Below, in pieces: positions 882 to 9,994 of a DNA stretch of 64,000 bases. This DNA is from SAR324 cluster bacterium (GTDB lineage Bacteria; SAR324; XYD2-FULL-50-16): the NCBI GenBank assembly GCA_028282885.1, contig JANQGX010000024.1, forward strand, positions 1 through 64,000, in the 5' to 3' direction. The notes beneath the pieces were generated by a model, which was not told where the DNA came from, ran no database searches, and saw only the letters and a program-made list of their open reading frames with translations. Every line of letters starts with the position of its first letter. Positions within the stretch are counted from its first letter, which is position 1. The position numbers and the translations under genes were made by a program.

Positions 882-1790
882 TTAAACTTTCACTGTAAAG
901 GAGACTATTTTACCATTGGCCTCTTTTTGGGAAGGCTCTTCTTGGTCTTTGGAAGAAACCCTCCAAATTGGTAACTTAGAATTGAGTTCATGGCTTAATA
1001 CGACAGAGATTGCACATAAAATTTTAGGACCTAATGGTAAAATTACTGGGCGCTTTGTTGTTTCTAAACCAAGCACAATTGATTTTAAATCTCCATAGAG
1101 AATAATAGGATTGTGTACGTCGTAAAAAAATTGATTTCTTATAGGGATGTCCTTAAGTAATGAATAGTTGTTTTTCATTACTATTGGTTCGAACTTTGGT
1201 TCATTACTTCTTGGAATCAATGCCCAGACTTCACCTGGATCTATATAATTTACTGCTCCGAGTGCTTTGTCTTTTTCGTATCCAAGTCCAACAATACAGC
1301 ACGTGGGTTTATTCAAATCTCCAGGTATTCCTGCGAGCCGTGGTGAAATAGGTTCGATTATTTTAACTGGAGGAGCAATCTTCGGTGGCGATACGAATTT
1401 TGAAACCGAGTATTTTATCGTTAGACTTGAGCCCTTTTTAAGTCTCCTTAAAATCAGCAATATCAGTGTTGAAAAACGAAAACGACTCATGCTTGTTATA
1501 TCTAACAATATGCTGACTTTTTCAAACTGTTCTATTTTCGGAAGGACCTCTGACTCAAATTTTTTGATTAACTCTCTTTCTCGTATTGTGAAATGCTCAA
1601 TATCATTTGTATTTAAAAAGCTCAGGTTATCTTCATATGAGAGTTTGTTATTATACCGATATCCAAAAGCAATTTTCTGAGAGCATTTCTTTAGGTATTT
1701 TTGAGGGATGTGTATCGATCTCGCTTCATAGCCTAATGCAAATAACGCAACATCAAACTCTGTTTCCTCTGAGGACGGTCCAATTATCAT
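882..1790 (-). CDS. Unrecognised protein, last gene of a putative defence operon
   Basis: About 302 residues, not recognised. A TTG at 1811 would give a slightly longer protein, but an AGGAGG ribosome site sits just before the ATG at 1790, so that start is preferred. The sequence reads as two Rossmann-like halves. The first has strand-rich segments FDVALFALGYEARS near the N terminus and ILLDITSMSRF about 95 residues in. The second begins with CCIVGLGYEKDKALGAVNYIDP around residue 165. GYE occurs in both halves, suggesting an internal duplication. No catalytic motif, membrane segment or signal peptide is evident. It follows the ATPase gene by 17 bases and so is almost certainly co-transcribed with ATPase, phosphoesterase and methylase. 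A role as sensor or effector of that module is inference from position only. Confidence 0.8.
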   Translation of the reverse strand: MIIGPSSEETEFDVALFALGYEARSIHIPQKYLKKCSQKIAFGYRYNNKLSYEDNLSFLNTNDIEHFTIRERELIKKFESEVLPKIEQFEKVSILLDITSMSRFRFSTLILLILRRLKKGSSLTIKYSVSKFVSPPKIAPPVKIIEPISPRLAGIPGDLNKPTCCIVGLGYEKDKALGAVNYIDPGEVWALIPRSNEPKFEPIVMKNNYSLLKDIPIRNQFFYDVHNPIILYGDLKSIVLGLETTKRPVILPLGPKILCAISVVLSHELNSKLPIWRVSSKDQEEPSQKEANGKIVSFTVKV

Positions 1791-1807
1791 TCTACCTCCT
1801 GTCTTTT

Positions 1808-3592
1808 TCAACTACCTTGATCTTGTATATAACTATCAATTGAAATTGGATCATTTCCTGGTGGTAAACTATCTCTAAATATCTCATGTAGGCTGATCTC
1901 TTTCATTACCTGCAAGGGTAAACTGAAATCATGAGCAAACAAAAACGAGAGACGAAATCGTGAGTTTCTGATTGAACAAATATTTGATTCAACCCCTTTT
2001 TGCGAAATCTTAATCAAGGCTCCGGCATTTAGCGCACGACCGATTGTTTCATCTAGCTCTAGAGCAACCTCATCCCCGATCGAAAATGATCCAACTGGTT
2101 CACCATTGAACTCACTTCCAACAATACCCTCTCTGAAATGTTTTCCTATAATATCAATGAATCCCTTGACAGTCTTACACGATAGATATTTTGATCTCAA
2201 TGTGTTCAGTAGTGACGTCAAAGTAATTTTACTGTTTTGTATCGCCTCAATCTGAGCAAAAATCTCAATTTGTTTTTTGCTTTTGCCTAAGCCACTTAAT
2301 AACTCATTCATAGTTGAGGTTAGCATTCGAGGGTTATACTCTAACGATTTTGCCAAATTATCGAAACCACCATAGTAATTATGCGGTCTTCTAAGTGTTC
2401 TTTTACTCATATCGGACTTGAATACATGATTTCTTAGCAATGCAACATATTCAATTTTTCTGATCGTTGGTCGTTTGTTTTTTTCTTTATAACCTTCAAC
2501 ATGTTTTGCATCAATGCCGTTTTTTTCGAGATATTCTTTAAAACTATTATCTTTACCAGCGAGTTGAACAAATACTTTTTCTGGCGATGGGCCTTCTGGT
2601 ATTTTGAATCTAGTCTCCAAACTCCCCTCATAACCTTTTGCTTCATATAATTGCTGGCAAAGCTGAACTGCAAAAACTTTTCCTGACTTTTTCTTTCGTC
2701 CAGATGTTAAATCAATATAATTGAAATCATCTTTTTCGGAATGACCAAGAGGATCGCCGCCAATTTTAAGATCTTTATGATATGGTGACAAAGATAGCTT
2801 AAGAATTATATTGTCTGGACCTCCTCTTAATGAGTCAATAAGAGGTTGGATTATCTGTTCTGGAGCCAACTCTAACTCATCAAATAATAATGCCCACTTT
2901 TTACCATGTTCATTTATGTAAGAATTAATTATAGAAACTCCACTTGATGCTGTGTGCAACAAATCAGTAAAGGTGTTTGTTTGAAAAAGTTCATTTAATT
3001 CAATATTCTCTTCAAGAACCCTATTGGTGTTGTTGATTAATTCCTGAATTTTGAAATTTACAGAAGCTTTTAATGATCTGATAGTGGGAAGAATTGGTTT
3101 GACATGCCAAATATGAGATAATTCAAGTACAAGTTCCTTCTCATCTTTTTTTTCAATATTTACGGCTCTAAATTTATATTTCTTTGATACATTTCTATTT
3201 ACTCTAAACTCAAGAGTACCGGTAATTTGCTCTAAAGTATGATAAATGAACACTTCAGTAACAAGTTTTTTGGCAAGCTCTTTATTTTTAATTTGGCTAA
3301 TGATCGACTCAAATTGTTGTTTCCAAATGATGTCAGTTGAAATAAAAACTCCCGAATATTCAATACTGTTTCTATACTGATCAGCTTTAGTATGCATCCA
3401 GATTTCCATAGCCTCAACTTGGAGCATCTTCATAAGTGTTGTTTTTCCGCTTCCTCTTGGACCAACAAGCAAACTGTTACCCTGACCAGACAGCTTGGAA
3501 AAATGCTCGGTAATTATGAACCTATCACAAATCTGCTTAGTTGAGAGGGTTTTAGCGTTATAAGCTTCATGGATGCTATGTATTCTATTCAT
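1808..3592 (-). CDS. ORC/Cdc6-like P-loop AAA ATPase
   Basis: 594 residues. The Walker A loop GPRGSGKTT is at residues 44-52 and a Walker B strand WALLFDE at 233-239, followed by a sensor-like ILKLSLSP strand about 30 residues later. The N-terminal layout (short lead, then a compact P-loop) matches large bacterial ORC/Cdc6-like ATPases, a group often found next to other defence genes. The C-terminal half, from about residue 400, has no motif I recognise and may hold a winged-helix or recognition region. The start overlaps the metallophosphoesterase stop by 8 bases, indicating translational coupling. Within the operon it is the natural energy-using or trigger-sensing subunit; that role is inferred. 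Local base composition is much more AT-rich than the genes after 10,240. Confidence 0.85.
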   Translation of the reverse strand: MNRIHSIHEAYNAKTLSTKQICDRFIITEHFSKLSGQGNSLLVGPRGSGKTTLMKMLQVEAMEIWMHTKADQYRNSIEYSGVFISTDIIWKQQFESIISQIKNKELAKKLVTEVFIYHTLEQITGTLEFRVNRNVSKKYKFRAVNIEKKDEKELVLELSHIWHVKPILPTIRSLKASVNFKIQELINNTNRVLEENIELNELFQTNTFTDLLHTASSGVSIINSYINEHGKKWALLFDELELAPEQIIQPLIDSLRGGPDNIILKLSLSPYHKDLKIGGDPLGHSEKDDFNYIDLTSGRKKKSGKVFAVQLCQQLYEAKGYEGSLETRFKIPEGPSPEKVFVQLAGKDNSFKEYLEKNGIDAKHVEGYKEKNKRPTIRKIEYVALLRNHVFKSDMSKRTLRRPHNYYGGFDNLAKSLEYNPRMLTSTMNELLSGLGKSKKQIEIFAQIEAIQNSKITLTSLLNTLRSKYLSCKTVKGFIDIIGKHFREGIVGSEFNGEPVGSFSIGDEVALELDETIGRALNAGALIKISQKGVESNICSIRNSRFRLSFLFAHDFSLPLQVMKEISLHEIFRDSLPPGNDPISIDSYIQDQGS

Positions 3593-4832
3593 ATTTGTTT
3601 TTAAGTCCGATTTCTACAATATTCCCTTTTTCGATGGTTACAGCAATATTGCATAATTCTAATTGATCTTTAAAAATCTTTCGATCTGCCGGTGTAAAAT
3701 AAACATAATCATTTAAATATTCTTTTAACTCATCTTCTTTCATTAACGGCTCACTGGGTGTTAGTAGACTTTCAAACTTGCTTGCTAACTGATACGGATT
3801 TTCATTTGCTCCAAACCCACCTCTAGCTGGAATATCTTCAATTGGAGAGAGTTCCCAACCACTTCCTAGCGTCCAAGTGTGTGTATTAAATATCCCTACA
3901 GGAGTGCTTTTGTTTTTAGTTTTAATAAGATCAATATCGAGAATTTGGAATTGATTCCTAAGTTCATCTCCATCTTCTTGTTTATGGGAATAATCTTCTT
4001 GTGATTCTTGATCTAAGACCTTGTCCAATCTTTTCGATAAGCTTCCTGCTGATATTATAACCGGTTGGGTATGTGCTCGACATGGAGCGTATTGAACTGC
4101 TGGTTTATGCCTATGCCCATGGATTATCAACCATGCTCCCTTTTGTTTTTGGAGAAGGTTCTCGAACAAATTGGCAGCCCCTTCCATGAACTGTCTATCA
4201 CCCCCTGGTGTATTCATGGGTGTAGGATGGTGATGGCAAATTACTATATTCAGATGTTTATTTTTAAACTTTCTAGAATCAACATATTCGTTTATTTGAT
4301 CACTGATTTTTGGTGCTATCCTTCCATGTTTATACTCATCATTAATTCCATGATAAGCGCTAGAGTTAATCAGAATTACATTGAAAATATCACCTTGAAT
4401 ATGACACCAATGCCACGCCCAAAAATGTGTATTTACACTATGATGCGAAAAAGGGAATTTCGGCGACGCATGTTGGAGAAAATACTTCGGATCAAAATCA
4501 ACTTGTGAGGTTCTAGACTTGTGATCATGATTACCTGGCACACTGAAAAGGTGTTTTGCTTTGGTTGCTTTTTTTAATTCATTTAAGCATTTCCAACCAA
4601 AATCGAAATTTTCTTCTTTGGCTTTATTTCCTATGTCTCCGGGGCAGATTATTATGTCGGGTTGAAGGCTAGATTCTTCTACATAATTTAAGAATGTTTG
4701 GAAAAACTCACTGCTATGACTGTCGTTTTTTATTAAGTGCGAATCAAGATCAATATGATCACAATCAAAGCATGCAATTGCATGCAGATCGGAAACAATC
4801 ATGATCTCTAAACTGTTTTTTTGATTAGCCAT
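3585..4832 (-). CDS. Calcineurin-like metallophosphoesterase
   Basis: 415 residues. The two-metal phosphoesterase motifs are all present in order: SDLH (D15, H17), GDIGN (D66), GNHD (N101, H102), HHHP (H200-H202) and GHRH (H240, H242). The catalytic domain fills roughly residues 8-270. The remaining 145 residues carry no recognisable domain and could contact the ATPase or nucleic acid. No signal peptide is seen, so it should act in the cytoplasm. Proteins of this fold cleave phosphodiesters in nucleotides or DNA (SbcD/Mre11 is one branch), but this one has no SbcC partner beside it. The ATG at 4832 overlaps the methylase stop by 8 bases. A nuclease or nucleotide-hydrolase role in a defence complex is inference. 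Confidence 0.9.
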   Translation of the reverse strand: MANQKNSLEIMIVSDLHAIACFDCDHIDLDSHLIKNDSHSSEFFQTFLNYVEESSLQPDIIICPGDIGNKAKEENFDFGWKCLNELKKATKAKHLFSVPGNHDHKSRTSQVDFDPKYFLQHASPKFPFSHHSVNTHFWAWHWCHIQGDIFNVILINSSAYHGINDEYKHGRIAPKISDQINEYVDSRKFKNKHLNIVICHHHPTPMNTPGGDRQFMEGAANLFENLLQKQKGAWLIIHGHRHKPAVQYAPCRAHTQPVIISAGSLSKRLDKVLDQESQEDYSHKQEDGDELRNQFQILDIDLIKTKNKSTPVGIFNTHTWTLGSGWELSPIEDIPARGGFGANENPYQLASKFESLLTPSEPLMKEDELKEYLNDYVYFTPADRKIFKDQLELCNIAVTIEKGNIVEIGLKNKYE

Positions 4833-5637
4833 AATTTCTTACAATGATCTCCTTAGCTTTCTGCCATGAATCCTTGAAACCGGCTATATGTCTTGGCACC
4901 GTCAAATCTAAAACATTGAATTTAGACCCAAGTAATCGTGCAATATCCCCGCAAGCACGATAAGATAACATGAATTTAGCATTCAATTTATCGATCCTTT
5001 CAAGTTCTGCAATTAAGGTTGGTAATTCACGGTAACTGAAGCTGTTCAATCCATATTCTCCTGTAAACTTATCCGTTTTTGAATATGGCGGATCCAAATA
5101 AACAAAATCATCGCTTTTTATCCGCTTCAGAGTTTTTTTATAGTCGCAACACACAATTCTCGCATTATGGAGTTTTTCTGCAGCATAATCGAAGCTTTCT
5201 TGGTTCGGAATCCCCCCAGTTCGAGTCCCCATTGGAACATTGAATTGACCTTCCTGATTAGTTCGATAAACCCCATTAAAACAATACCGATTGAGGTAAA
5301 GGAAACGGACTGCTCTCTCGTTCTTTGTTAGTTTTTTGGTATCAAGCTTTCTTATTTGATAATAGTTGTTTTTCGAATGATGAATTGATTCAAGCTTTTT
5401 TCTAATATCGTTGTCGTGTTTTATCTGATTCCAGGTATTTATCAATTCCTGATTCACATCTGATAAAAGAGCTCTATTTGGCAACAAGTGGAAAAAAAGA
5501 GATGCTGAACCACAGAAAGGCTCAACATACCTTTTGAAACTCGGAGCAGACAGTTCCACTAGCAAAGGTATTATCTTTCTTTTACTGCCAGCCCACCTGA
5601 TAATAGGTGTTTTCCTGGTAATAGGCTTTTCAGTCAT
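4825..5637 (-). CDS. Dam-like DNA adenine-N6 methyltransferase (D12 class)
   Basis: 270 residues. RWAGSK at residues 14-19 and FCGSAS at 41-46 form the SAM-binding motif X/I region, and DPPY at 182-185 is the catalytic motif IV of D12-class adenine methylases. Length equals that of Dam, which methylates A in GATC, but specificity cannot be read from sequence. A TTG codon directly precedes the ATG at 5637; the ATG is preferred. It is the first gene of the operon and has a good promoter about 55-80 bases upstream. No cognate restriction endonuclease of a known family follows, so the three downstream genes may supply the restriction or sensing arm. An orphan phage-type Dam is the alternative. 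Confidence 0.9.
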   Translation of the reverse strand: MTEKPITRKTPIIRWAGSKRKIIPLLVELSAPSFKRYVEPFCGSASLFFHLLPNRALLSDVNQELINTWNQIKHDNDIRKKLESIHHSKNNYYQIRKLDTKKLTKNERAVRFLYLNRYCFNGVYRTNQEGQFNVPMGTRTGGIPNQESFDYAAEKLHNARIVCCDYKKTLKRIKSDDFVYLDPPYSKTDKFTGEYGLNSFSYRELPTLIAELERIDKLNAKFMLSYRACGDIARLLGSKFNVLDLTVPRHIAGFKDSWQKAKEIIVRNYG

Positions 5638-5690
5638 CAAACGATGTTTCTTTAGTGAGAATCCGAATAATTACCTAAATAATTTCAGCG

Positions 5691-5720
5691 AGAATACTAC
5701 TATCAATCTCCATTTGTCAA
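5691..5720 (-). promoter_or_regulatory. Sigma70-like promoter of the four-gene operon
   Basis: Read on the minus strand, a perfect TTGACA (5715-5720) is followed after 18 bases by TATTCT (5691-5696). This places a transcript start near 5684, about 45 bases before the methylase ATG. It is the only strong promoter seen ahead of the four overlapping genes. Confidence 0.55.
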
Positions 5721-5900
5721 AACAGCATAAAACACTTAAGAGTTGATTTATCGGGATAATACGATGAATCAAATTCAACTTGACCCGGGGAAGTGGGGGC
5801 GGTATTGTGTTTATGTAATTTGATTGTTCCTTTGGGGACCGTTCTTTCATTGGGTTTTGAGAATTCTGCGACCACGGGATTCGCCGGACTGCCAATCCAC

Positions 5901-6000
5901 AAAACGCGAGGTGAAATGAGAAGGGCCCAGAGGTTTGGCTACGATGAGGTTGGCGCCTCGTCTTATGGTGTGTCAGCACCGCCAGGCTTCTGGGCTTTTC
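5901..6000 (+). ncRNA. C4-type phage antisense RNA
   Basis: The stretch contains the hallmarks of the C4 antisense RNA known from phages P1/P7 and widespread in proteobacterial prophages. A CGAGG (5907-5911) can pair with CCTCG (5956-5960) around a GGTTTGGCTACGATGAGG core, and a CCCAGA (about 5926) can pair with TCTGGG (about 5988), followed by CTTTTC. C4 RNAs normally sit immediately upstream of an antirepressor gene and block its translation. Here an antirepressor-like gene starts at 6063, exactly the expected context. Boundaries are approximate. I recognise the motif from memory of the family; a covariance-model search would settle it. Confidence 0.65.
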
Positions 6001-6062
6001 TCATTTTTGGGGAAGGGCTCCAGCCTAGTGGTTACCTTAATCTCTGTTCTGGAGATTACACC

Positions 6063-6569
6063 ATGACTGATAAAAACACGGCTGTACTCGTCAAGAGTCT
6101 CGTCTACGCGGAGCGACCGCTCCATGTTTTCCTGTACAATGAAAGGATTGCATTTCTCACCCGGGAGGTGGGTGCCATTCTCGATATTCCGGAACCAACC
6201 GGATCCATGAACCGATCCAGAACCCTGGAGACCGATTTTGATTACGACATCATTCCTGCGGCTTCGTTTCCCGATCGGGAAGGATTGAACCTCGCCGGCG
6301 TGAATCATGTCAGCATTCTTTATCTCTCCGGCTTCTTCAGCTTCGTCATCCGGTCCAGGGTCTCTCTCGTTATGCCCTTCATCCGCTGGGCGATCCTGGA
6401 GATCCCCCTGACTTATCCTTCGGAATGCTTTTCAGACCTGATCCGTGGCACCAGGCGTCTGCTAAGACTTTCCATCGAACAAAGCCAGGGTATGGATCAG
6501 AACATGCTCCTTGCGAGTCAATTGCTGATTGACCAGGGATACCTCGATGCAGATCCCGAAGCCGGTTAA
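6063..6569 (+). CDS. Phage antirepressor-like protein (BRO/Ant N-terminal type)
   Basis: 168 residues from ATG 6063; the frame is open further upstream, but that part overlaps the C4 RNA and does not look like protein. A GGAG lies about 11 bases before the ATG. The first 60 residues (LHVFLYNERIAFLTREVGAILDIP, then RSRTLETDFDYDI) resemble the BRO-N/antirepressor domain, which binds DNA or repressor. The rest is short, with none of the long C-terminal domain of P1 Ant. It is the protein partner expected of the preceding C4 RNA. It may be a surviving prophage regulator or a domesticated copy. Confidence 0.65.
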   Translation: MTDKNTAVLVKSLVYAERPLHVFLYNERIAFLTREVGAILDIPEPTGSMNRSRTLETDFDYDIIPAASFPDREGLNLAGVNHVSILYLSGFFSFVIRSRVSLVMPFIRWAILEIPLTYPSECFSDLIRGTRRLLRLSIEQSQGMDQNMLLASQLLIDQGYLDADPEAG

Positions 6570-6619
6570 CCAGATTGTGGCAGAAATGCCCAGGGAGGTG
6601 ATCATATCCAAAACTAATT

Positions 6620-6841
6620 ATGGATATCATCGACCTGGAGGATCATCTGCTCAAACTGAAGCTGCAGCTCGATTTCATTCTGAGAGCCTTCGCCGCCATG
6701 GCAGTCGACACCACCGACACCGGCTTACAACCCACAACAGACGAAGCGTTTCGGGGGATGGAATTGGGCCAAACGATCGCCCAGGAGATAGTGGAGATAA
6801 CAATTGATTCTCTGAAGTCTGGTCGCCAGTTGCCTGGTTGA
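6620..6841 (+). CDS. Small hypothetical protein
   Basis: 73 residues, predicted as two or three helices (LEDHLLKLKLQLDFILRAF, then TIAQEIVEITIDSLKSG). It follows the antirepressor-like gene by 50 bases on the same strand. A GGAGGTGAT lies about 17 bases before the ATG, further than usual, so the start is not certain. I do not recognise the family. Small helical proteins next to C4/ant units may be co-regulators, but nothing here proves it. Confidence 0.45.
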   Translation: MDIIDLEDHLLKLKLQLDFILRAFAAMAVDTTDTGLQPTTDEAFRGMELGQTIAQEIVEITIDSLKSGRQLPG

Positions 6842-6890
6842 TTACCCTAAAAGGCCCGGCTCAACCGGACTTTACATATCGAAAAGCCAA

Positions 6891-7181
6891 TTAGTTATTC
6901 GCAACTACTTTGATCTCAAGATGGCAATCCAAAGCGTCCGCGTATTTTTTGATAGTGGCAAGAGACGGGGAATGTTTCCCGCTGCTCAAAGAGGATTCCA
7001 GCCTGGTAACGGCGGGTGGTTTGGTACCCATTCGTTCTGCAACTTCCGCCTGGCTAAGTCCAGCCCTTTGTCTGGCTTTCAACAATTCACGAAGTAGTTT
7101 GAACTCAGGCTCCAGCGCGTCGTATTCCGCTTTTACCTTCTTATTCTTCAATGCTTTTGCTTTCAGTTCAGAATGCTTCAT
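6891..7181 (-). CDS. HigA-like XRE antitoxin
   Basis: 96 residues. A helix-turn-helix of the XRE/Cro type spans about residues 36-70 (RAGLSQAEVAERMGTKPPAVTRLE), and the tail ALDCHLEIKVV is typical of HigA-type antitoxins encoded after the toxin. The gene starts 14 bases inside the toxin gene, so the two are translated as a coupled pair in toxin-first order. The protein should neutralise the toxin and repress the operon at the palindrome at 7513-7528. Confidence 0.85.
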   Translation of the reverse strand: MKHSELKAKALKNKKVKAEYDALEPEFKLLRELLKARQRAGLSQAEVAERMGTKPPAVTRLESSLSSGKHSPSLATIKKYADALDCHLEIKVVANN

Positions 7182-7503
7182 CTTTCAGTACCTCCTTCAT
7201 TCGTGATTTAGCTATGTTGATTTCCTTTTTAGGAGTTTTCTGAGTTTTCTTGATAATTGAATGAAGCATGATGATTTTCTTACCAATCTTGAGGCAAAAG
7301 AAAACTCTGGCAGTTCCTTCTTTACCTTTTACACGTAGCTCGAACAACCCGGAGTCTATCGGTTTTGTGTGTGGCAGCCCGAGGTTTGCGCCGAACTTGA
7401 GCATCATGTCTGTCAATCGCAAGTAACGAGCCAGCAATCCATCCGGAAGTTTGAGGATCTCCTCTTCAAGTTTCTGACTGTAGTATTTTACATGCCACTT
7501 CAT
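7168..7503 (-). CDS. HigB-like RelE-superfamily toxin (Gp49/DUF891 type)
   Basis: 111 residues. The fold signature runs LPDGLLARYLRLTDMM, then PHTKPIDSGLFELRVKGKEGTARVFFCLKIGKKIIMLHSIIKKTQKTP, which is the Gp49-like/HigB pattern including the conserved ELR and the late lysine cluster. Such toxins cleave mRNA at the ribosome. The gene precedes its antitoxin. No ribosome binding site is visible before the ATG, and the predicted transcript start falls on or next to it, so the message may be leaderless. Confidence 0.85.
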   Translation of the reverse strand: MKWHVKYYSQKLEEEILKLPDGLLARYLRLTDMMLKFGANLGLPHTKPIDSGLFELRVKGKEGTARVFFCLKIGKKIIMLHSIIKKTQKTPKKEINIAKSRMKEVLKDEAF

Positions 7504-7509
7504 AAATCG

Positions 7510-7539
7510 AATATAACAAATTTGTTATGTAAGACGCAA
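7510..7539 (-). promoter_or_regulatory. HigBA promoter with palindromic operator
   Basis: A perfect 16-base palindrome ATAACAAATTTGTTAT lies at 7513-7528. On the minus strand it is flanked by a TTGCGT (7534-7539) and overlaps a TATATT (7510-7515), 18 bases apart. The palindrome therefore sits in the spacer and -10 of the toxin-antitoxin promoter, the standard position for autorepression by HigA. Confidence 0.6.
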
Positions 7540-7954
7540 GCAGATTTCTCTGTTTAGAATTCCTGGAAACCCGGGTGAAAGTACTTCCCCACTTGCGTGA
7601 TAAGACGATCGCCTAAGAGATTATGAAAATTGCATACAGCTCTCTGGAGCCTATACTCAAATGGCTGGTTGGGGGAGAGAAGTGTAGCAAGTGATTTAGA
7701 ATGTGGGTCAGGAAATATCAATTTCGCTTATTTCGATACATGGTATGGCAAATCACCTTTCTATTCAAAAATAAGACTCGCCATACCGCTAAACATTATG
7801 CTTATCGAACAATATCCTCATAAATAAAAGCTGTTAAATTGTAGACAAGATTGTTCAGTTTTTGAGCTAAACCCCAACCTCCTTTTCTGTCATTTACTTC
7901 AACCACAACTCTGTAGATCTCTTCTTGTCAGGCAGAGGTCAGGAATGCTATTGC
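7540..7954. other. Non-coding stretch, left part
   Basis: About 400 bases with no frame that has both a plausible start and protein-like composition. A 65-codon frame at 7630-7827 was considered and dropped. The sequence looks like eroded intergenic DNA inside the accessory region. Confidence 0.4.
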
Positions 7955-8594: not shown

Positions 8595-9713
8595 ATGACC
8601 ATGAACATACAATTACTTGCACAAAACGTAAGGCGACTTAGGAATGCGAAGCATTTTAGCCAGCAGAATCTTGCGCAAGCTTCCGGTCTTTCCTTACCTG
8701 CCATAAAAAAACTGGAAGGAGGAAATGTTGAACCCAGGATGAATACTTTGCGTTTGATTGCAGAAGCCTTGGAGGTTCAACTGCAGGAACTGTTTTATCC
8801 AGTGCGTGAGCTTAATACCGTACGATTTCGATCGAAAAAACGCATGAGAAACAGAGAAAACATGCTGGCCAATATTGGTAGATGGCTTGATGATTTTAAC
8901 TTTCTTGAAGAGATTTTGAATGATCATCCCCCCTTCAAGCTGGAAAGCTTGAAGAATGAGATTTCTACTGATGATATTAAGAATGCTGCCAGATTATCCC
9001 GAAAAACTCTCAAGTTGAAGGGAACTGAGCCTATATATGATATTTGCGGATTGATGCAAAGTGCCGGTGTTAAATTGGCTCCCGTTTCAATCTCTTCAGA
9101 AGATTTTTTTGGCCTATCAGTAGGAAAAGAGGACGGTGGTCCTGCTATTGTGGTTAACACCTGGAATAGGATTCCTGTTGAACGTCGGATATTCTCTACT
9201 GTTCACGAGCTTGGCCATTTACTACTTCACAGCAATGCATACGATGTTAGTCAAACCGAAGAAAACAAAAACGAAGAGAAAGAAGCTGATTTATTTTCTG
9301 GGCATTTTCTCATGCCTAATAAGGGATTCCAAAAAGAATGGGATTCTACCTACGGAATGTCTTTGGTCGATAGGGTATTTAAAGTAAAACGGATTTTTCG
9401 TGTTAGCTATAAAGCTGTACTTCACAGGTTGATTGAATTGGAGTTTGCTGGAAATGAGATCTGGGGTAAATTTAATTGGGCTTATCAACAAAGATACAAG
9501 AGAAAATTGAACTTCAAAGAGGAACCCAAAACCGGGGCTCTTAGTGAACCCGCCCAAATGCTACAGTTTGAATTCTTTGAAGACAGACTCAGCAAACTCA
9601 CCCGAAAGGCAATTGAAAAAGATAAAATCTCCCTAAGTAGAGGAGCAGAAATTTTGGGCATGAGCATTATGAAAATGCGAGAACTTCTGGTTGACTGGAA
9701 GGCTGTATCATGA
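8595..9713 (+). CDS. XRE-family regulator fused to ImmA/IrrE metallopeptidase
   Basis: 372 residues. An XRE helix-turn-helix occupies about residues 8-65 (FSQQNLAQASGLSLPAIKKLEGGN). An ImmA/IrrE (COG2856) zinc peptidase domain follows from about 150 to 270, with the active-site HELGH near residue 206 and the distal EEKEADLFSGHFLMP helix. The C-terminal part (KLTRKAIEKDKISLSRGAEILGMS) looks like a second DNA- or protein-binding helix pair. Such fusions act as antitoxins or repressors controlled by proteolysis. The stop overlaps the ATG of the next gene, which encodes a PIN fragment, matching known XRE-ImmA/PIN toxin-antitoxin pairs. Confidence 0.88.
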   Translation: MTMNIQLLAQNVRRLRNAKHFSQQNLAQASGLSLPAIKKLEGGNVEPRMNTLRLIAEALEVQLQELFYPVRELNTVRFRSKKRMRNRENMLANIGRWLDDFNFLEEILNDHPPFKLESLKNEISTDDIKNAARLSRKTLKLKGTEPIYDICGLMQSAGVKLAPVSISSEDFFGLSVGKEDGGPAIVVNTWNRIPVERRIFSTVHELGHLLLHSNAYDVSQTEENKNEEKEADLFSGHFLMPNKGFQKEWDSTYGMSLVDRVFKVKRIFRVSYKAVLHRLIELEFAGNEIWGKFNWAYQQRYKRKLNFKEEPKTGALSEPAQMLQFEFFEDRLSKLTRKAIEKDKISLSRGAEILGMSIMKMRELLVDWKAVS

Positions 9714-9727
9714 AGAAAGGTGAGCCA

Positions 9728-9994
9728 ATGTTCATGATAATGGATGCCTGTGTGCTAATTGATTATCTAAAAACAGATAAATCTGTTCTAAGACTATTTG
9801 TCGAGTTCATTGGTCCTGTTCATGTTGTCAGTCCGATAGTTGCAGAAGTAAAAGACATCGAAAATGAAGATGAGCTAATGGAGCTTGGACTGATAATCGT
9901 TGAACCGGAGCTTGAAGATGCTTTTGAAGCTGCAGAACTAATAGGATCCACTTCTTTCCAAGATAACCTCTGTCTTCTTACAGCCAAACGTTAG
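9728..9994 (+). pseudogene. PIN-domain toxin, truncated at the C terminus
   Basis: About 88 residues from ATG 9728, which has AAAGGTGAG just upstream; an ATG at 9710 overlaps the preceding stop. The N terminus MDACVLIDYLK carries the first PIN aspartate and SPIVAEVKDIE the next acidic residues. FQDNLCLLTAKR is the start of the segment that normally leads to the final NDxxLR acidic motif. The frame stops there, so the last third of the usual 150-170 residues and at least one metal ligand are missing. It is probably inactive RNase, with the XRE-ImmA gene left intact. A short functional variant cannot be excluded. Confidence 0.6.

Follow-up and report, generated by a model that had tools for sequence, protein, structure and literature searches.

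We describe a four-gene operon at the left end of a contig from a SAR324 cluster bacterium, in a stretch of 64,000 nucleotides that we call the window. Its minus-strand open reading frames (ORFs), all four intact and spanning 882-5640, encode a Dam-family (D12) adenine DNA methyltransferase, a calcineurin-like metallophosphoesterase, an ORC/Cdc6-like ATPase of the AAA+/STAND clade and a CARF6-family protein. The invariant core is three genes (phosphoesterase-ATPase-CARF, hereafter the trio) and not four, because the methylase is a modular part, exchangeable and at times absent where the host supplies one. From sequence comparison, the operon methylase appears to be missing almost only where the host has its own Dam; this complementarity is the strongest new result of the analysis. 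We think it rather probable that this is a mobile defence operon, in which the Dam mark labels DNA as self, and cells with unmarked DNA come under attack by the trio or are shut down by it.

Gene organization

The methylase gene (4825..5640, minus strand, probable ATG at 5637) is the first of the operon. Its product matches TIGR00571 (207 bits), PF02086 (164 bits) and also PADLOC MTase_II (4e-67), and carries the motifs RWAGSKR, DPPY and FNGVYRTN..FNVP. It is followed on the same strand by the phosphoesterase gene (3585..4832; PF00149, 3.8e-12), the ATPase gene (1808..3592) and the gene of the CARF6 protein (882..1811), a tandem Rossmann protein. The methylase/phosphoesterase and phosphoesterase/ATPase junctions are 8-base overlaps (ATGGCTAA and ATGAATAG, respectively). 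The CARF6 gene most likely starts at ATG 1790, which is preceded by a perfect AGGAGGT and lies 17 bases past the ATPase stop. An earlier note on this DNA, made from the letters alone, had described four minus-strand genes with junctions of 8, 8 and -17 bases, and the ORFs agree with this. The same note had seen intact catalytic motifs of a D12 methylase, a two-metal phosphoesterase and a P-loop ATPase, which we found again, and a composition unlike that of the genes to the right (G+C of 0.34-0.37 for the operon versus 0.42-0.51). Its 'one strong promoter' did not hold up. Upstream of the methylase gene, TTGACA-18-TATTCT (5691..5720, minus strand) resembles a promoter but is a consensus match only: it is the joint best among 23 such matches in the region, where 19 are expected by chance, and a single strong promoter is therefore not established.

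The trio recurs as a block across phyla

An alignment of the ATPase was scanned against about 85,000 species genomes, giving 70 loci, and the ORFs of the loci were searched with profiles. Complete trios number 70 when the window and the loci on plasmids are counted in (one plasmid twice). In all 70 the order phosphoesterase-ATPase-CARF is kept, on one strand and with tight junctions, which rules out a chance gene cluster. Across this survey of species genomes and plasmids the trio genes were never seen apart. A Dam gene stands immediately upstream of the trio in 50 of the complete loci, so that the conserved co-occurrence of the four families, named beforehand as a check, is indeed found.

The loci fall in at least seven phyla (Pseudomonadota, Bacteroidota, Actinomycetota, Acidobacteriota, Planctomycetota, Verrucomicrobiota and Gemmatimonadota), and the distribution is rare and patchy across them. 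Most are on non-plasmid contigs with unrelated flanks. By tblastn against plasmids, the ATPase matched five records and the CARF protein matched the identical five. Methylobacterium, Cupriavidus and Sinorhizobium plasmids carry Dam, phosphoesterase, ATPase and CARF in the exact order of the window, and a Pseudoalteromonas plasmid record carries the last three genes of the set. Near-identical ATPases were observed in Alteromonadaceae and a Nitrosomonadales metagenome-assembled genome, and in Hephaestia and Mesorhizobium; such pairs show horizontal transfer. Neither of the two searched genomes of the same genus has the trio. A PF24389 survey of the window's own lineage returned mostly generic P-loop noise, with few genomes above the cut-off and none of the same genus. 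No trio relatives were found in viral contigs (fourth protein as query) or in phage records (ATPase as query).

The operon methylase and the resident Dam are complementary

Seventy of the genomes with these loci were searched for Dam with the TIGR00571 profile. The operon Dam is the sole Dam of the window's genome. At ten loci no methylase is encoded locally (L035, L038, L039, L040, L041, L047, L053, L072, L073 and L079); at L039 and L079 just 642 and 496 bases lie ahead of the phosphoesterase gene, where an adjacent Dam would appear as a cut-off fragment. A resident Dam is encoded elsewhere in the genome in all ten cases (277-314 bits), versus a second Dam above the cut-off in 5 of the 48 genomes with an operon Dam (L056, L094, L096, L100 and L104; Fisher's exact p ~6e-8). 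In nine of the ten, the resident enzyme bears the signature NGLCRY(N/S)..FN(V/T)PFG, which we take to be associated with E. coli Dam; L053 has one of the KWAGGK/NGLFRVN type. The operon Dam of L104 (7923-8771) is broken (split ORFs, one internal TAG), and its genome encodes a second Dam that is intact.

The slot can also hold a different enzyme. In L042 (6653-8092), L043 (7408-8778) and L046 (7465-8781), a divergent D12 methylase of 438-479 amino acids takes the place of Dam and overlaps the phosphoesterase start, and these genomes are without any Dam. At L070, L091, L092 and L102 a Dam lies within a few kilobases. Only for L074 and L087 was no methylase found, and both begin within 150-400 bases of a contig end. 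Operon Dams are spread over several clades of the Dam family: one large clade with RWAGSKR, to which the window belongs, one of Bacteroidota with RWTGSK, a group with KWAGGK, and L084/L095.

On the ATPase tree, the no-methylase state falls in four lineages. The first comprises Vibrio and Pseudoalteromonas loci, which branch among loci with Dam from Teredinibacter, Zhongshania, Halomonas and the window; the second is L072/L073/L079, beside the Dam-carrying Cellvibrio L071; the third and fourth are L047 and L053. All four independent tree pairs agree with complementarity, and the operon Dam has been lost in about four separate lineages. Since the slot holds different Dams, another D12 methylase, or nothing where there is a host Dam, the trio would depend on a DNA mark and not on a protein partner; it seems to need a methyl mark rather than one particular methylase.

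Features of the three core proteins

The phosphoesterase has the complete set of two-metal motifs (D15, H17, GD66, GNHD100-103, H200 and GHxH239-242), and its metal ligands are invariant across 48 orthologues. A C-terminal winged helix (PF24408, wHTH-Calcineurin_assc) is recognized in 41 of the 48 (best 2e-17); in the window copy the match is weak (0.028) and below the cut-off. By sequence, the nearest solved relatives are Lmo2642 and Rv0805, and CpdA is also among the relatives. All 48 phosphoesterases match NCBIfam DS9_1_antiphage (E up to 1e-5) below its cut-off, the window copy with 55 bits for a cut-off of 420. In DS-9A, mutation of the catalytic residues abolishes phage defence (PMC13092281).

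The ATPase carries Walker A GPRGSGKT (44-51), Walker B DELE (238-241) and NPR (420-422), motifs that are invariant or nearly so across 43 orthologues, Walker A and B included. It matches PF24389 (ORC-CDC6-like) with 320 bits, far above the gathering score of 27. The AlphaFold2 model (predicted local distance difference test, pLDDT, 87.5) has as nearest folds BrxC of the bacteriophage exclusion system BREX (9zll, best match) and ORC subunits. Matches of the ATPase domain to mad3 and mad8 are weak (E 9e-4 and 2e-3). Three ATPases of the family match the PADLOC CARF6-kinase-AAA fusion profile, which hints weakly at joint action of CARF6 and this type of ATPase.

The fourth protein, which the earlier note had left without known motif, belongs to PADLOC CARF6 (PDLC01918): the window copy scores 300 bits and all of 50 orthologues match. 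Its model (pLDDT 96) shows two Rossmann-like halves; GYE is conserved behind the first strand in both, and GPK follows strand 4 of the second. Fold matches are weak, to the CARF domain of Csm6 (probability 0.93, E 3.5e-3, template modelling score below 0.4) and also to the SAVED domain of Cap5, so that the 'CARF' label rests on the profile match. The protein is predicted to be a nucleotide-type sensor, one of the two roles (sensor or effector) first proposed for it. Enzymes that usually make CARF ligands do not accompany the trio consistently: a CD-NTase (SMODS) is present in only 10 of 50 trio genomes, with none among the four operon genes, and no convincing Cas10 was found in the trio genomes (the palm model gives 20-35 bits, scores of the kind given by diguanylate cyclases). 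In the window's own genome, no cyclase partner for CARF6 was found.

A proposed mechanism and its alternatives

We infer that the operon functions in phage defence. In the favoured reading, adenine throughout self DNA, probably at GATC or a closely related site, would first be methylated by the Dam-type enzyme of the operon or by host Dam, a step that is well supported. The BrxC-related ATPase and the winged helix of the phosphoesterase may then engage DNA without the mark. This engagement would license the two-metal phosphoesterase, either for DNA cutting or for nucleotide hydrolysis. In the last and least certain step, the tandem CARF6 protein might bind a ligand of nucleotide type, perhaps a product of breakdown, and so set the threshold of the response. 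Phosphoesterase, ATPase and CARF would form a single functional unit, following the principle of restriction-modification with an unusual 'restriction' half, and the methylase slot would be modular because the trio reads a DNA mark and binds no particular methylase. The pairing of a self-marking methylase with an ATPase/phosphoesterase module had been put forward in the earlier note. It fits the recurrence, the Dam complementarity and the kinship with DS-9, except that the methylase turns out to be exchangeable and, where the host supplies one, dispensable. A wider proposal, which we hold only tentatively, is a widespread class of methylation-gated immunity in which an ORC/STAND-clade ATPase, a DNA-directed phosphoesterase and a CARF6 sensor, as one obligate module, read the Dam mark and may borrow the host's Dam, a housekeeping methylase then serving as immune password.

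Several points weigh against the favoured reading. Most of the ten no-methylase cases come from two host groups, and a sign test over the four independent tree pairs cannot go below p 0.125. To our knowledge, a resident Dam is near-universal in Vibrionales and Alteromonadales; the contrast is for this reason largely one between host groups. The operon Dams have R, not K, before the WAGxK motif, at a residue that contacts the first base in EcoDam, and GATC as their target is our presumption. Among solved structures, those closest to the phosphoesterase belong to enzymes that hydrolyse cyclic nucleotides, not DNA. Finally, enrichment in defence islands, a further expectation of the earlier note, is suggestive only: 76 PADLOC families lie near the loci versus 17 in a far-flank control, and these figures count overlapping families, not proteins.

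The complementarity data would also fit if the trio were an abortive-infection guard of Dam methylation, silent as long as host DNA is methylated but killing or arresting the cell once Dam is blocked by a phage or unmethylated DNA floods in, with no selective cutting of phage DNA. The ATPase belongs to an ORC/STAND clade used in NTP-switch immunity (PMC8195603), and a CARF sensor together with a phosphoesterase related to nucleotide hydrolases would suit a nuclease, but equally an effector that depletes nucleotides or signals. The core, however, is without known toxin or membrane effector, and the winged helix of the phosphoesterase speaks for direct action on DNA. Because the effector carries this DNA-binding domain, we favour selective cutting of foreign DNA over cell arrest and regard the guard as unlikely, although it is the alternative that we take most seriously.

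The CARF6 assignment, the weak Csm6 and Cap5 SAVED fold matches and the phosphoesterase relatives Rv0805, Lmo2642 and CpdA would also suit cyclic-nucleotide signalling, with CARF6 sensing a cyclic oligonucleotide made elsewhere, the phosphoesterase as effector or off-switch, and Dam as a loosely coupled passenger. A passenger Dam conflicts with the complementarity, no nucleotide cyclase is encoded in the operon, and the SMODS and Cas10 palm counts given above offer no regular source of ligand; we judge this improbable. Least probable of all is a role outside defence, in replication, segregation or DNA repair, where Dam and the ORC-like ATPase would license the origin of a mobile element: the kinship with ORC/Cdc6 and the occurrence on plasmids agree with it, but the loci are mostly on non-plasmid contigs, rare and patchy, without a fifth gene, an origin or a partition gene that recurs in their unrelated flanks, and their phosphoesterases match DS-9.

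Neighbouring genes

To the right of the operon, the window carries a repeated element (5779-6804), of which the genome has further copies with 90, 80 and 78% identity (two on contig C46, one on C78). Two toxin-antitoxin-like modules follow: a Gp49/HigB-type protein with a helix-turn-helix (HTH) partner at 6891-7503, and at 8595-9994 an HTH-IrrE(M78) protein and, behind it, a small ORF with a PIN-domain-like start. The toxin-antitoxin genes reported next to the locus (6891-7503) are thus present, whereas the phage genes reported with them were not confirmed.

Other loci have their own neighbours. In the Pseudoalteromonas locus L031, a 614-amino-acid protein with no Pfam match lies directly upstream of the trio (5904-7748), and its C-terminal part resembles a PD-(D/E)xK nuclease by eye. 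Four alphaproteobacterial loci (L034, L042, L043 and L062) share, on either side of the trio, a pair that by eye is FMN-oxidoreductase-like and dCTP-deaminase-like; dCTP deaminases are known anti-phage genes. On the Methylobacterium plasmid (L032, 12475-15947), a second metallophosphoesterase lies beside a CHAT-domain protein just downstream of the operon. Recombinases of the resolvase/invertase type, possible mobility genes, are found about 0.9 kb upstream of the trio in L083, L086 and L089.

Comparison with known systems

No model of PADLOC 2.0 or NCBIfam 20 (2026) matched the operon as a whole, and no paper describing the set was found, although the CARF classification of Makarova et al. 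2020 (10.1093/nar/gkaa635) or Burroughs & Aravind 2020 (10.1128/JB.00365-20) may mention it. Its parts are already catalogued, the ATPase and winged helix as Pfam families and CARF6 in PADLOC, and are therefore not new to specialists. The earlier note could not place the operon in a named system, and here too it was not assigned to type II restriction-modification, BREX, the methylation-associated defence system MADS, DS-9 and the cyclic oligonucleotide-based antiphage signalling system CBASS.

As in type II restriction-modification, a D12 (Dam/DpnM-like) methylase is coupled to a module that may be unable to persist without the mark. The operon differs in having an ATPase, a phosphoesterase and a CARF protein instead of a restriction endonuclease: no Pfam or PADLOC match to such an enzyme was found in the three methylase partners, and with no cognate endonuclease family the operon was not assigned to this type. 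With BREX it shares methylation and an ATPase of the ORC/Cdc6 clade, for which BrxC (9zll) is the best fold match. This likeness is at fold level only; there is no PglZ or BrxC sequence match, BrxB and PglX are lacking, the methylase is D12 rather than PglX-type, and the ATPase is much shorter. For MADS, the mad1-8 set is not present and the weak mad3/mad8 matches are all that was found.

DS-8 and DS-9 (DefensePredictor, PMC13092281) contain a related metallophosphoesterase that is catalytically required for phage defence. It is paired with a HAD phosphatase in DS-9 and with a NACHT domain in DS-8, where our operon adds Dam and CARF instead; with 55 bits against the 420 cut-off and no HAD gene among the four, the operon is not a DS-9. 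Orc/Cdc6-family ATPases also occur in the DNA-mark-based or mobile defence neighbourhoods of Ssp/Dnd-associated and HerA/FtsK-capture systems (PMC10853773), whereas the operon core is without phosphorothioate genes, HerA/FtsK or restriction endonuclease.

The CARF-superfamily assignment recalls type III CRISPR, and the tandem Rossmann halves are arranged as in the SAVED proteins of CBASS. No Cas10 or CD-NTase is encoded in the operon, in contrast to these systems, and none is consistent in the genomes; CBASS (SMODS in 10 of 50 trio genomes) and a type III CRISPR accessory (no convincing Cas10 in the trio genomes) were both set aside. If the favoured reading is true, the operon would place a CARF protein in a setting without either enzyme, and the question of a CARF ligand outside CRISPR and CBASS would become testable. 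It would also mean that such a module can dispense with a methylase of its own by relying on host Dam, a further possible explanation for strains in which Dam cannot be lost. Compared with the systems above, the operon would be a mark-based self/non-self defence with a restriction half unlike those seen in named ones, an epigenetic defence of at least seven phyla so far catalogued only as scattered protein families.

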